DNA from: Myxococcales bacterium
Lineage (GTDB): Bacteria; Myxococcota_A; Bradymonadia; Bradymonadales; Bradymonadaceae
NCBI GenBank assembly: GCA_007135085.1
Contig: SLJM01000036.1
Location: 1-62,752, forward strand
Length of the DNA stretch: 62,752 bases
Direction of reading: 5' to 3'
Part shown: positions 26,385 through 34,166 of the stretch, in pieces
Position numbering within the stretch: the first letter of the stretch is position 1
Layout: each line of letters begins with the position of its first letter
The notes under the pieces: generated by a model
Database searches by the model: none
The model's input: only the letters and a program-made list of their open reading frames with translations
Told to the model about the DNA's origin: nothing
Translations under genes and position numbers: made by a program

Positions 26385-27953
26385 ATGGAAAATTATCAGA
26401 CCGAGACACCGACTCCGGAACATACGAAGCCCCCCCGTCACCAGGATCAGACCCTGCCTGAGAATCAGCGTCTCTGTTCGTTCAACCCCGTCGATCGATC
26501 GGTGGTGGGCGAAGTAGAGCTGACTCCGGCGTCTCAGAGTGACACCATCGTCGAGCAGGCGAGCGACGCTCAGCGCGCCTTTCAGCGCCGGCCGCTCGAC
26601 GAACGCATCAAGATCGGCCGACGCCTTGTCTCGCAGGTTCTGAAGTGGCGAACTGAATTGTTGGAGCTCATGGTCGACGAGACGGGCAAGAGCACTCTGG
26701 AAGCCCGCTGGGAGCTGTGGAAGACCTGCGATGAAGCAGGGGAATTGTTGTCACAGGCCAAAAAGAGGATCAGCGGCGATCGCACCCGCCAGTGGTGGCG
26801 CCCCCACCGGGTCATCGAATCCACCTGGCAGCCTCGAGGAGTGGTCCTTGTGGTGGCCTCGGCCTATGAACCCCTCCAGACCACGGTGGCCCCCGCGCTG
26901 GCCGCTCTGCTCGCCGGCAATGCGGTGATCGTCGTCGGCGATGAGCGGGCGCCGCTGACCGTCAAGTCCGTGACCAATATCGCCGCCGGCGTCACCGGCC
27001 AGGAGTCGTTGTGGACCGGCTGGGTCGGCGGCCGACGCCTGGTGGACTCTCTGGCCGACCGGGTGGACGCGGTGGTCTCCTACGGACCGCCCATGATGAC
27101 CCGCAGGCTGGCGCGGCGCCAGGGCGATCGCACGATCCCCGTCATCGGCCGCTGGCCCACTCAGAACGCCATGATCGTGCTCAACGACGCCGATCTGGAC
27201 CGGGCGGCCAGAGCGGCCGTCTTCGGCGCCTGCTCCGGCGCCGGCAGAAGCCGCCGGGCGATCCGGCGAATCTATGTCCAGGACTCGGTGGCCGATCTCT
27301 TCGTGGACTCCGTAGTCGAACAGATGGGCACCCTGCACCAGGGCAGCGACGGCGACGGCGATAATCGAAAGCGCCAGATCGGCCCCCTCTTCGAACCGCG
27401 CGATCTGGAGCGCCTGGAGAGCCTGGTCGACGACGCCTGCCGCAGCGGCGCTCGGCTCATCGCCGGAGGAAGGCCGCGTCCCCGCTGTCGAGGCACTTAT
27501 TTCGAGCCTACCGTGCTCACCGGCGTCGACGAATCGATGCGCCTGTGGCGCGAGCCCGCCCCGGGCCCGGTGGTGGCCATCAGCTCCGTGCAGGCCCCGG
27601 CCGACGCCGCCCGCAGGGTGCGCGATATCCCGGGCTACGGAACGGTGGCGATCTTTTCGGCCAACCAACAGGTGGCCCGCAACCTGGCAATACGGCTGGA
27701 GGCCCCGGTGGTGGGGATCAATGAAGTCGTCGACGACCTGCGCGCCGCCTCTCCCACCGTGCAGGGCACCTTCGACGGGCCCATCGATCCGACCGGCGCC
27801 GATCGGCTCGAGGCCCTGTCCCGAAGGGTCGTCACCGTGGAGCGCCGCCTTTTGGGCCTGCCCAAAGTCCTGGAGACACGCCACGCCGGCCGCACCGAAA
27901 AAGCCCTCGACGCAGCGATGAGCGTGCTGCGCTTCGCTCGCACGCTGGGGTGA
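26385..27953 (+). CDS. Aldehyde-dehydrogenase-fold protein lacking catalytic residues
   Basis: 522 aa with the ALDH architecture: FNPVDRSVVGEV, WQPRGVVLVVASAYEPLQTTVAPALAAL region, SYGPPMMTRR, DADLDRAARAAVFGA and GTYFEPTVLTGV. Where ALDHs have the ELGGK general base, this has IGRWPTQ (Arg for Glu by my alignment from the DADLD anchor). Where they have GQxC, it has GRSR (287-290), placing Arg290 at the catalytic Cys; Cys283 is nearby but seven residues off. It therefore looks like a non-catalytic ALDH. A Lys/Arg-rich C-terminus (SVLRFARTLG) is encoded by the first unit of a hairpin repeat array. Neighbouring genes give no pathway. Confidence 0.78.
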   Translation: MENYQTETPTPEHTKPPRHQDQTLPENQRLCSFNPVDRSVVGEVELTPASQSDTIVEQASDAQRAFQRRPLDERIKIGRRLVSQVLKWRTELLELMVDETGKSTLEARWELWKTCDEAGELLSQAKKRISGDRTRQWWRPHRVIESTWQPRGVVLVVASAYEPLQTTVAPALAALLAGNAVIVVGDERAPLTVKSVTNIAAGVTGQESLWTGWVGGRRLVDSLADRVDAVVSYGPPMMTRRLARRQGDRTIPVIGRWPTQNAMIVLNDADLDRAARAAVFGACSGAGRSRRAIRRIYVQDSVADLFVDSVVEQMGTLHQGSDGDGDNRKRQIGPLFEPRDLERLESLVDDACRSGARLIAGGRPRPRCRGTYFEPTVLTGVDESMRLWREPAPGPVVAISSVQAPADAARRVRDIPGYGTVAIFSANQQVARNLAIRLEAPVVGINEVVDDLRAASPTVQGTFDGPIDPTGADRLEALSRRVVTVERRLLGLPKVLETRHAGRTEKALDAAMSVLRFARTLG

Positions 27954-28102
27954 AGGGCGCTTACGCGCCCGGGGTGGAGCGGCTTCGCCGCGGGGTGGAG
28001 GGCCCTTTCGGGCCCGGGGTGGAGCGGCTGGACAGCGCCGCGGGGTGGAGCGTGCTACGCTTCGCTAAGGCACGCGGGGTGGAGGGCCTGGACTGATGGC
28101 CC
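27921..28102 (+). repeat. Hairpin array 1 (GGGGTGGAG orientation)
   Basis: Constant word GGGGTGGAG at 27971, 27992, 28016, 28042 and 28076, with a variant GGGGTGAAG at 27947. Between the words are short inverted repeats of different sequence: GGGCGC/GCGCCC, CGGC/GCCG, GGCCC/GGGCC, CGGC/GCCG, CGTGC/GCACG and GGCC/GGCC. The first unit (27921-27946, AGCGTG/CACGCT stem) lies inside the ALDH-like coding region and the TGA stop sits in the variant word. Unit 27921-27946 and unit 28051-28075 resemble each other (both contain CGCTTCGCT). Confidence 0.85.
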
Positions 28103-28387
28103 GGTAACAACGGTAAACCCATGCGGTCGAGAAACTCTCAATGGCAAATATCACGATCAAGACTTTTACTGCGAAAGACCTCGATGGGTAGTTCAACCCG
28201 CGGCGCAGTTTAGCCGCTCCATCCCGCGGCGCAGTCCAGCCGCTCCATCCCGGGCCCGAAGGGCCCTCCACCCCGGCTGCGCAAGCAGCCTCCACCCCAG
28301 CGCGAGCTTGTCGAGCGCGCCTGGTCTGCGTAGACTGGAGGTGACTCTAACCCGTCCCCTACCAGAGCCCTACCAGAGGCATCGCCG
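27954..28387. other. 434-base intergenic region holding two opposed hairpin arrays
   Basis: Apart from arrays 1 and 2, the centre (28103-28191) is a less GC-rich stretch with no recognisable gene, and 28321-28387 is the leader of the HEAT-Clp gene. The arrays face each other, so the whole region is a large imperfect inverted repeat around the central 90 bases. Confidence 0.7.
28192..28320 (-). repeat. Hairpin array 2 (CTCCACCCC orientation)
   Basis: Constant word CTCCACCCC at 28266 and 28290 and variant CTCCATCCC at 28217 and 28243, with a decayed end near 28192 (TTCAACCCG). Hairpins between them: two almost identical CGGC-GCAGTNNA-GCCG units, GGCCC-GAA-GGGCC, GCTGC-GCAA-GCAGC and GCGCG...CGCGC. 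This is the reverse-complement form of array 1. Confidence 0.85.
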
Positions 28388-30946
28388 ATGGAAGATAAGC
28401 TGCAATTGGCCAAGGAACTCTTCCGCAAGATCGAGGAGACCGAAGGTGAGGAGCGATATCGCAGTTTTCGCGACCAGCTCTATGGATTGGGATCTGAAAT
28501 TGCACCGGTCTTGCTGGAAAACTTAACCCACCGCAGTTATCTGCGCCGCATGGCAGCGGCCACCAACCTGGGCCGCCTGGGTTATAAGGACGCCGTCGGC
28601 GATCTGGTGGAGCTGCTCAACGATCCCCAGGCCGGGGTGCGGGAGATGGCCCTGTTCTCCCTGGGGATCCTCGGCGATCCGTCGGTGACCGAGCCCGTCT
28701 TACAGGCTCTTCACGACTACGATGCCGACGTGCGCTATCGAGCGCTGGTGGCCCTGGGCGACCTTAGTTATCCCCACCTGGAAGAAGTACTGATTCGCTG
28801 TATGGACGACGAATCCTACGGGGTTCGTGAGCAGGCGCTGTCCCAGCTTCGCGCCGTGGGCACCCCGCGGTGCGTGCCTGTGGTGCTCAAGGCGCTGCTC
28901 GAGCGCGAGCTCGATATGCAGCGAAGCGCCGAGGAGCTATTGGACCGCCTGGTGCCGCGGCTGACCCGCGAGCATTATCGCAAGCTGCCCCAGCAATTGA
29001 GCCCCCGAGAACGGCGGCTGATCCTCAACTATATGGAGGCCCGCAAACTCCAGGAGGTCTACGGCACCCTCTGGAAGCACCTCCAATTGACCTCCCCGGC
29101 GGTCAAAGAAGAGCGGGGACTCGATAAATACGGGCGCATCCTCAACAGCGACGACGAACGCGAATTTCTGGTCCGCGCCTACGGCCGCGACGACACGGTG
29201 GACACCCTGGTCGACCATTTTTGCGATCAGGGCTCGTCGCGCAGCATCTTGCTCGTCGGCGAAGCCGGCTCGGGCAAGACGGCCATCGTCCACGAGATGG
29301 TCCACCGCCTCCATGAGGTCGGCGAAGATGGTGAAGAGTGGACAGTCCTGGAGACCAATACGAGCGAGCTCATTAGCGGCACCCGCTACCTCGGCGATTG
29401 GGAGACCAAGCTCAAGGAGATGACCGAGGCCATTCTGGAGCACGATCGGGTCATCATCTACGTGACCAACCCCAACGATCTCCTCGGCGCCGGCGCCCAC
29501 TCCAAGAGCGACGAGAATTTTGCCGATTTCTTCAAGCCCTATCTGCAGCGCGGTCAACTTCGGATGATCGCCGAATGCACCGAAGAGGACTTGAAAAACG
29601 GCCTGACCAGCGATCCCGGCTTCTTACGTCTCTTTCGCCAGGTCAAAGTCCAGCCCATGGACGAGGCGCAGACCCTGGAGGTCTTGAGCCGGCGGATCAT
29701 GGATATCGACGTCGACGACGATCGGGTCGTGCGCGCCGAGCCGGGGTGTCTGGAACAGATCCTCGATTTTTCGGAGAGTTTTTATACTCGCAGCCATCCC
29801 CCGGGGAGGGCCTGCGATCTGATGGACGCCCTGGTGGACTATACGGAGCGCCACGACGACGGAGAGGGTGAATTCGTCCTCTCTGTAGAAAATATCCCGC
29901 CCTGCCTGGCAGAAGTGACGGGGATGAGCCTCGATCTGCTCGACGATACGGTGCCCCTCGATCTGAATGAGACTCGCCAGTGGTTCGTGGAGCGCCTCAT
30001 CGATCAGGAGCACGCCGTGGAGGCCATCGTCGACCGGCTGGCCCTGGTCAAGACGGGGATGGGCGATCCCGACAAGCCTCTGGGGGTCTTCTTTTTGGTC
30101 GGTCCTACGGGCGTGGGCAAGACCTATTTTACCAAGCTCATCGCCGAGCGGCTCTTTGGCTCCCAGAAGCGCATGGTCCGCTTCGACCTGAGTGAATATC
30201 AGGGCCGCTACGCCGTGGAAAAGCTCATCGGATCGCCACATGACAAAGACCGCGAGGGCCTTCTCACCGAGGAGATCCGAAACCAGCCCTTCTCGGTGCT
30301 TCTCTTCGACGAATTCGAAAAGGCCGACCCGGAGATCTTCAATCTCTTCTTGCAGATCCTCGACGAGGGGCGGCTGACCGACGCCCGCGGGCGGACCACC
30401 GATTTTCGCCAGACCCTGATCTTTTTGACGAGCAACCTGGGGGCCTCGAAGATGAGCATCCAGCCCCTGGGCTTCGGCGCCGGCGCCGAGCAGGTGGGCG
30501 GCCAGATCCAGAAGAAGCTCGACGAATTTTTCGCCCCTGAATTTCTAAATCGCCTCGACGATACGCTGATCTTCAACCCCCTGTCTCGCTCGGCCATGGA
30601 GCGCCTGGTCGACATCGAGTTGGAGCGGGCTTTCGAGCGCCGGGGCTTTCGCCGCCGAAACCTCGAGGTCCAGGTCGACAAGCCAGTGCGCCACTGGCTC
30701 GAGGAGCAGGGCTTTAGCCAGCGTTTCGGCGCTCGAAAGCTAAAGCGGACGATTGAAAAATACGTCCTCACCGCGATCAGCCGCCAGATGTTGGCCGAGC
30801 CGGGCCCCCACGACGGAAAGCTTATCGAGGTCACCGTCGACGAAGGCGAGATCCTGGTCCAGCTCAAAGAACGGGCTACCGAATCCTCATCGGCCCCCAG
30901 TCTTCCGAGAGAACCACGAAGCCCGAGCCGCCTCGAGTCGCAATGA
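28388..30946 (+). CDS. HEAT-repeat Clp/Hsp100-type double AAA+ ATPase
   Basis: 852 aa. Residues 1-200 are HEAT/PBS-lyase-like repeats (AAATNLGRLGYKDAVGDLVELL, DVRYRALVALGDLSYPHLEEVL) where Clp proteins normally have the Clp_N domain. First AAA+ has Walker A GEAGSGKT (291-298) but Walker B reads VIIYVTNPND (355-364), with Thr-Asn instead of Asp-Glu, so hydrolysis there is doubtful. Second AAA+ has Walker A GPTGVGKT (572-579), Walker B LLFDEFEKA (D641, E642) and Clp C-terminal GFSQRFGARKLKR. No ClpB middle coiled coil. PLGFGAG at 693-699 sits where ClpA/ClpC carry the IGF/LGF loop that docks on ClpP. Likely an unfoldase with HEAT-based substrate choice. Overlaps rsmG by 4 bases. Confidence 0.85.
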   Translation: MEDKLQLAKELFRKIEETEGEERYRSFRDQLYGLGSEIAPVLLENLTHRSYLRRMAAATNLGRLGYKDAVGDLVELLNDPQAGVREMALFSLGILGDPSVTEPVLQALHDYDADVRYRALVALGDLSYPHLEEVLIRCMDDESYGVREQALSQLRAVGTPRCVPVVLKALLERELDMQRSAEELLDRLVPRLTREHYRKLPQQLSPRERRLILNYMEARKLQEVYGTLWKHLQLTSPAVKEERGLDKYGRILNSDDEREFLVRAYGRDDTVDTLVDHFCDQGSSRSILLVGEAGSGKTAIVHEMVHRLHEVGEDGEEWTVLETNTSELISGTRYLGDWETKLKEMTEAILEHDRVIIYVTNPNDLLGAGAHSKSDENFADFFKPYLQRGQLRMIAECTEEDLKNGLTSDPGFLRLFRQVKVQPMDEAQTLEVLSRRIMDIDVDDDRVVRAEPGCLEQILDFSESFYTRSHPPGRACDLMDALVDYTERHDDGEGEFVLSVENIPPCLAEVTGMSLDLLDDTVPLDLNETRQWFVERLIDQEHAVEAIVDRLALVKTGMGDPDKPLGVFFLVGPTGVGKTYFTKLIAERLFGSQKRMVRFDLSEYQGRYAVEKLIGSPHDKDREGLLTEEIRNQPFSVLLFDEFEKADPEIFNLFLQILDEGRLTDARGRTTDFRQTLIFLTSNLGASKMSIQPLGFGAGAEQVGGQIQKKLDEFFAPEFLNRLDDTLIFNPLSRSAMERLVDIELERAFERRGFRRRNLEVQVDKPVRHWLEEQGFSQRFGARKLKRTIEKYVLTAISRQMLAEPGPHDGKLIEVTVDEGEILVQLKERATESSSAPSLPREPRSPSRLESQ

Positions 30947-33898: not shown

Positions 33899-34162
33899 CG
33901 ATGCCTCGTCTCTGGACGTAAAGCGAATCTTTGATCACTCATCTTATAAGCCAGCTTGTTTCAACTTGTCAAAAGCGCGCTGCGCTTTGCTCGCCCGCTG
34001 GACAAAATGCGGTGAGACGAACTAATTTTCGATCAAGCAGTTGCCGGGCTAGCAGTCCAAGCCCTCCATACCGGGCCCCCAAGGGCCCTCCACCCCGCGC
34101 CGAAGGCGCCCCACCCCGGGCCCCCAAGGGCCCTCCACCCCGACGCGCGAGCGGAGCGTAGC
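33899..34162. other. Divergent intergenic region with hairpin array 3
   Basis: 264 bases between the Gfo/Idh/MocA gene and the FHA-ABC gene. 33899-34045 must hold the promoters but no clear boxes are seen. 34046-34162 is repeat array. Confidence 0.6.
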
Positions 34163-34166
34163 GTGT
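34046..34166 (-). repeat. Hairpin array 3 (CTCCACCCC orientation), running into a start codon
   Basis: Units: a GGCT...AGCC-type imperfect stem, CTCCATACC, GGCCCCCAAGGGCC hairpin, CTCCACCCC, CGCC-GAAG-GCG hairpin, CCCACCCCG, GGCCCCCAAGGGCC again, CTCCACCCC, then a last GC-rich unit (34142-34166) similar to units 27921-27946 and 28051-28075 in reverse complement. The last unit contains GGAG (34153-34156) and the GTG start (34163) of the FHA-ABC gene. Confidence 0.83.

Follow-up and report, generated by a model that had tools for sequence, protein, structure and literature searches.

What kind of genetic element consists of a constant nine-base word alternating with hairpins of differing sequence, arranged as two opposed arrays? 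The question is raised by a locus (27921..28320) in the window, by which we mean the whole 62,752-nucleotide stretch of Myxococcales bacterium DNA that was analyzed. Its first array (arm 1, 27947..28084, plus strand) has six head words, beginning with the variant GGGGTGAAG at 27947 and continuing with five exact copies of GGGGTGGAG at 27971, 27992, 28016, 28042 and 28076, which alternate with five hairpins whose stems are GGGCGC, GCGGC, GGGCCC, GCGGC and GCGTGC. The array includes a 26-nt hairpin (28050..28075, plus strand), a G plus a 25-nt spacer, that has the constant loop TACGCTTCGCTAAG. The second array (arm 2, 28217..28298, minus strand) has two exact words at 28266 and 28290, two of the variant GGGATGGAG at 28217 and 28243, and three hairpins; in both arrays the numbers of exact and variant words agree with the original prediction. 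Each arm is bounded by a terminal hairpin. The left one (AGCGTGC..GCACGCT, 27921..27946, plus strand) encodes the final residues of a truncated aldehyde dehydrogenase, and the right one (28299..28320, minus strand) overlaps the likely promoter region of a downstream AAA/HEAT gene, probably TTGTCG-17-TAGACT as judged by comparison with congeners. Between the arms lies a conserved core (28085..28216, plus strand) whose inner left hairpin, GGGCC-TGGACTGAT-GGCCC (28084..28102, plus strand), forms the start of the conserved L core end, and whose inner right hairpin, GCGGC-TAAACTGC-GCCGC in the minus-strand reading (28200..28217, minus strand), forms the R core end. The arrays are separated by 132 nt from word to word, and the inner hairpins are about 97 nt apart; the 90-base core described previously was thus roughly right.

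The repeat unit is a GGGGTGGA head and a hairpin that begins with the final G of the word; counting this G as the first stem base gives the best pairing of the spacers. The head has the layout GGG-GTGG-A followed by a GC hairpin, with GTGG one base ahead of the stem. The window contained 10 exact copies of GGGGTGGAG versus 0.9 expected from dinucleotide shuffles, with none of 100 shuffles reaching 10. In the genome-wide test that had been proposed as a means of refutation, 93 pairs of GGGGTGGAG words were found 8–38 nt apart versus none for the reversed pattern, and 156 close pairs versus none when GGGATGGAG was allowed. The presence of words and hairpins is thus confirmed and is strongly non-random. 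These genome counts were obtained from pattern searches and fetched loci in an assembly of 5.19 Mb and 509 contigs, 93% complete, in which many contigs end at arrays. The fetched loci yielded 71 arrays on many contigs, comprising at least 259 words and 188 spacers, with 74 distinct spacers; 40 of the 71 arrays have four words. GGGGTGGAG accounts for 173 of the 259 words and GGGATGGAG for 60, and in the latter GATG/ATGG replaces GTGG so that the head is degenerate there.

Perfect stems of 5–6 bp were present in 180 of the 188 hairpins, represented by 19 stem sequences, with loops mostly of 3–4 nt and some of 8 or 14. Across the 74 distinct spacers the stem averaged 5.36 bp versus 0.57 in shuffles (shuffle maximum 1.04), and when the 3' arms were re-dealt the paired positions fell from 4.88 to 3.00 of 5; neither procedure, the first of which had been suggested as a check, ever approached the observed pairing. 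The cleanest case is the unit with the 25-nt spacer beside the core, which has a near-constant 14-nt loop and the stems GCGTGC, GCGTCC, GCGCGC, GCGCCC and GGGCGC, every one of them paired, and in which three stem pairs are altered on both sides between copies. The covariation is therefore genuine, and the claim that differing stems still pair holds beyond the window locus, throughout the genome. By itself, covariation cannot tell whether the hairpin folds as RNA or is recognized as DNA by a transposase. The order of the stems is also non-random. Neighboring units share a stem in only 2 of 117 cases versus 7.3 expected when positions are retained (a value as low arose in 42 of 4000 permutations), whereas next-but-one units do so in 14 of 54 versus 6.2 expected (2 of 4000 permutations were as high). 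The units have preferred positions, with mostly GG- stems first and third, GC- stems in the middle of the arm and the 25-nt unit beside the L side of the core. There was no significant sign that the arms of an element exchange units with each other (15 shared stems versus 12.8 expected).

The window element belongs to a two-armed class (n = 19) composed of an arm, a conserved core of ~132 nt and an opposed arm, with the arms 130–142 nt apart. Each arm usually has a terminal hairpin and about three units of head and hairpin in head-to-tail order, and the arms differ in the number and order of their units. Full-length copies of the core are 76–93% identical to that of the window, contain blocks such as CTCGATGGGTAGTTAA, and have inner hairpins with TGGACTGC-like loops. 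In a second class, which is common, a single arm finishes in a short conserved tail resembling CGGCTGGACTGCGCCGC-GGGGTTAACGGCGCGCTGCGTGTCG. The window also has a second, degenerate copy of the family (33975..34166, minus strand), which has one arm, the L core end and the remnant of an outer hairpin. The GTG start (34163) of a 958-aa ABC transporter gene, zinc-ribbon/FHA-like according to the domains read from its sequence, is inside that hairpin. Another palindromic repeat, CAGGGCAGGGATGCCCTG, is present at two other loci (L043 after 2400; L038 420-450), either in tandem or close to arrays, and on contig C27 a phosphopantetheinyl transferase-like gene, so named from sequence only, is located between two facing one-armed copies (L273, 1768-2700).

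When folded, the whole window element was far below its shuffles (z −15.2), largely because its arms are complementary to each other; arm 1 alone was mildly below (z −1.6) and the core alone showed no advantage over its shuffles (z −0.8). There is no support for a riboswitch- or ribozyme-like core, given that last value and the fact that only 2 of 22 consensus pairs are changed on both sides, both of them in an end hairpin. The search for a known Rfam RNA returned only two sub-threshold matches (18.1 and 11.3 bits versus gathering scores of 50 and 100). No sigma-70 promoter consensus was found at the window element, and no terminator-like site (a GC hairpin with a T run) in 27850-28450.

None of the 25 other genomes examined from the order has the core; four of these are congeners, which also had no word pairs. 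In a survey of 379 genomes of the phylum the others had at most a few word pairs, with the exception of one genome of the same order (G025). Its approximately 60 pairs of GGGGTGGAG, spread across many contigs, are a short GC-rich tandem repeat, GGGGTGGAGTGTGGGGGACAG, that is without these hairpins and is unrelated. An exact word-pair scan of the named genome collection gave, among the matches listed, only five in three loci with even a 4-bp spacer stem, and none with this layout. Arrays of this kind were seen in none of the other genomes searched, and the family is recent or species-restricted. It had been suggested that the whole may be a mobile or regulatory unit, and mobility is borne out in the broad sense that copies are dispersed and orthologous sites in a congener are empty.

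Our analyses indicate that the family probably consists of REP-type, GTGG-headed repetitive extragenic palindromes assembled into BIME-like composite elements. The GTGG head near the stem, the palindromes, the compensatory stems, the location at gene 3' ends and the lack of a target-site duplication all fit REPs. The original prediction is upheld as to covariation and broad-sense mobility, but not in its statement that no named element has this layout, as the REP/BIME design is just this, a GT(A/G)G head and a palindrome that occur in inverted groups at the 3' ends of genes (PMC2817692, PMC3733652). REPs of the GTAG superfamily have a GT(A/G)G head and a palindrome, as in the Pseudomonas examples of TGTGGGAG plus a hairpin (PMC2817692, Table 1), the tetranucleotide GTAG/GTGG being 0–2 nt 5' of the hairpin and in some cases 1–2 nt from a shorter stem (PMC6006769). 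Their stems are of 5–13 bp and in most GTAG families include alternative residues that are complementary; REPs prefer convergent and unidirectional gaps, are mostly at gene 3' ends and can supply stop codons (TAG) to flanking ORFs through their ends or insertions (PMC3733652). The family described here is alike in its head 0–2 nt from a GC-rich palindrome, its alternative complementary stems, its dispersed, extragenic, high-copy distribution mostly at gene 3' ends, its ends that supply stops, and in there being several families per genus, with species-restricted families. Its palindromes fall within the 5–13 bp of the REP definition (PMC3733652) but outside the stricter search rule of a 7–20 nt basal stem (PMC6006769). 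It differs in having 19 stems under one nine-base word, a 132-nt core, no cognate RAYT identified, and head-to-tail arrays as the usual arrangement, an order that is rare in described REPs (PMC3733652). As in BIMEs, REP units form mosaics with other conserved motifs, and units of opposite orientation can fold into a larger structure; however, BIMEs alternate orientation unit by unit (PMC2817692), whereas here each arm has one orientation and only the arms are opposed. REPINs (PMC3116915) similarly have two opposed REP arms around a spacer and are presumed to be non-autonomous mobile units. Unlike REPINs, the present elements have about three to five different hairpins arrayed in each arm and a conserved core of 130–142 nt. 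REPINs carry single REPs. The many stems under one head, the head-to-tail arrays, the avoidance of equal neighbors and the abutment to stop codons are unusual for REPs, and the REP model offers no explanation for the conserved 132-nt core.

Under the REP reading, a single-strand transposase of the RAYT type, recognizing head plus hairpin, would have spread the copies in trans, which would be the reason that the head and the pairing are conserved and the stem letters are not. Most likely, each copy is a gene-less palindromic element that is mobilized in trans and inserted from single-stranded DNA. Direct repeats of at least 4 nt at the element ends were found in only 1 of 14 pairs versus 1.7 expected, and such an absence of target-site duplication fits transposition of the IS200/IS605 Y1 type. 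Searches with Y1_Tnp and REP_Tyr_transpos found no cognate RAYT flanked by GGGGTGGA units in this assembly, which is 93% complete with many contigs ending at arrays. They identified one RAYT homolog flanked by repeats, on contig C415 (NF047646, 74.7 bits, cut-off 80; best solved relative TnpArep 4er8). Its repeats are of another family, with a GTGGGGCCG head and GTGGTCTCCAGACC or ATAGTCTCTGACTAT palindromes on both sides (L049, 4524-5955), that has exact matches at 12 places in only two contigs; this type of repeat recurs on contig C255, where no RAYT gene was seen. Four longer, weak RAYT-like homologs (L302-L305; contigs C445, C273, C323 and C104) have open frames of about 310–380 codons and no GGGGTGGAG words alongside, and a GGTATTT-type tandem repeat is near one of them (L303). 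In two congeners, G017 (L282) and G020 (L287), the repeats beside a RAYT gene likewise combine a single constant head with either of two palindromes. The RAYT-linked repeats of the genus, including those on C415, lie on both sides of a RAYT gene in opposite orientation and resemble the GGGGTGGA family in keeping the head and varying the stem, which supports the REP reading by analogy, although their heads and stems differ. We infer that the GGGGTGGA family was moved by this genome's RAYT or by one that was lost or is unassembled. In a complete genome of the same bacterial family (G002, L289), a Y1-transposase-like gene is flanked by long palindromic repeats including AGCGAAGCGTAG, a word that is also present in the 25-nt unit of the window family.

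The position of the elements relative to genes bears on a different explanation. With gene ends called heuristically by open frame and codon-position GC, 42 of the 66 scorable outer flanks were at gene 3' ends and 24 at gene starts. In 41 of the 42 gene-3' flanks the stop codon falls at −37 to +7 nt relative to the first head word, which places it within the outer hairpin or at its border; where the outer hairpin is clear, its start is at −2 to +1 relative to the end of the stop codon in 24 of 33 cases. In outer hairpins of seven pairs, TAG occurs with a 3' end CT and TGA with TC. At the window locus the element supplies a new C-terminus, SVLRFARTLG, in place of that of the aldehyde dehydrogenase, and the reading frame stops at the TGA of the first head word. 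The element was absent from all 18 orthologues in the congener G017, which likely represent the earlier state before the element; relative to these, the stop was at the same residue in nine, the protein of this genome was 1–9 residues shorter in seven, and it was one residue longer in two. Such regularity is what would be expected if the family were a host-adapted RNA module for mRNA 3' ends at stop codons, acting in 3' stabilization, ribosome release or the blocking of convergent read-through, with recombination between copies rather than a transposase as its means of spread. The scarcity of equal neighboring stems is also in its favor, since this would prevent mispairing of the RNA. We nevertheless consider this explanation unlikely, as more than a third of the outer flanks are at gene starts, the terminator-like T run was not found, and REP insertions alone are known to give flanking ORFs stop codons (PMC3733652).

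A second alternative, quite improbable, is that the family is a MITE derived from a classical (DDE) insertion sequence, in which case the arms would be its long terminal inverted repeats and the core a remnant. It would account for the inverted arms and the core of constant length, and on contig C399 a putative lipoprotein gene lies between two inverted R core ends as if it were a captured passenger (L038, 1128-1796). However, target-site duplications are no more frequent than expected, the number and order of units vary between arms, and single-armed copies are common. Chance words and hairpins in GC-rich DNA are refuted, for although local G+C is near 0.70 and short GC palindromes arise easily, the reversed control gave no word pairs, shuffles and re-dealt arms never matched the observed pairing, and the congeners have none.

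Returning to the REP reading, copies may persist through selection at those gene ends where the junction closes the ORF, which would be needed because GC-rich arrays offer few in-frame stops. Such selection can explain part of the abutment to stop codons, and the remainder may be due to target preference or an RNA function. The upstream mRNA would extend into the array, which would form its 3' end, and termination of translation as well as 3'-end decay may be affected by the stable hairpin at the stop, as has been suggested for E. coli REPs near stops; PMC12306157 cites E. coli REPs less than 16 nt from a stop codon as lowering translation. Tentatively, it is possible that this is a REP system that reads only the head as sequence, its stems being free if paired and unlike their neighbors, and whose terminal hairpin is built on the host stop codon, with some copies pairing its last two bases (AG..CT or GA..TC). 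The element would then be a replaceable cassette for translation termination and the 3'-UTR that recently spread through one species.

These findings add a REP/BIME-like system in a lineage distant from the gammaproteobacteria, where most are studied. A single genome with many natural hairpins, whose stems differ under a constant head, represents a test bed for whether the head, the pairing or the stem letters matter in REP recognition and function. The close stop-codon junction, which was checked against element-free orthologues, renders the proposed effect of REPs on translation termination directly testable.
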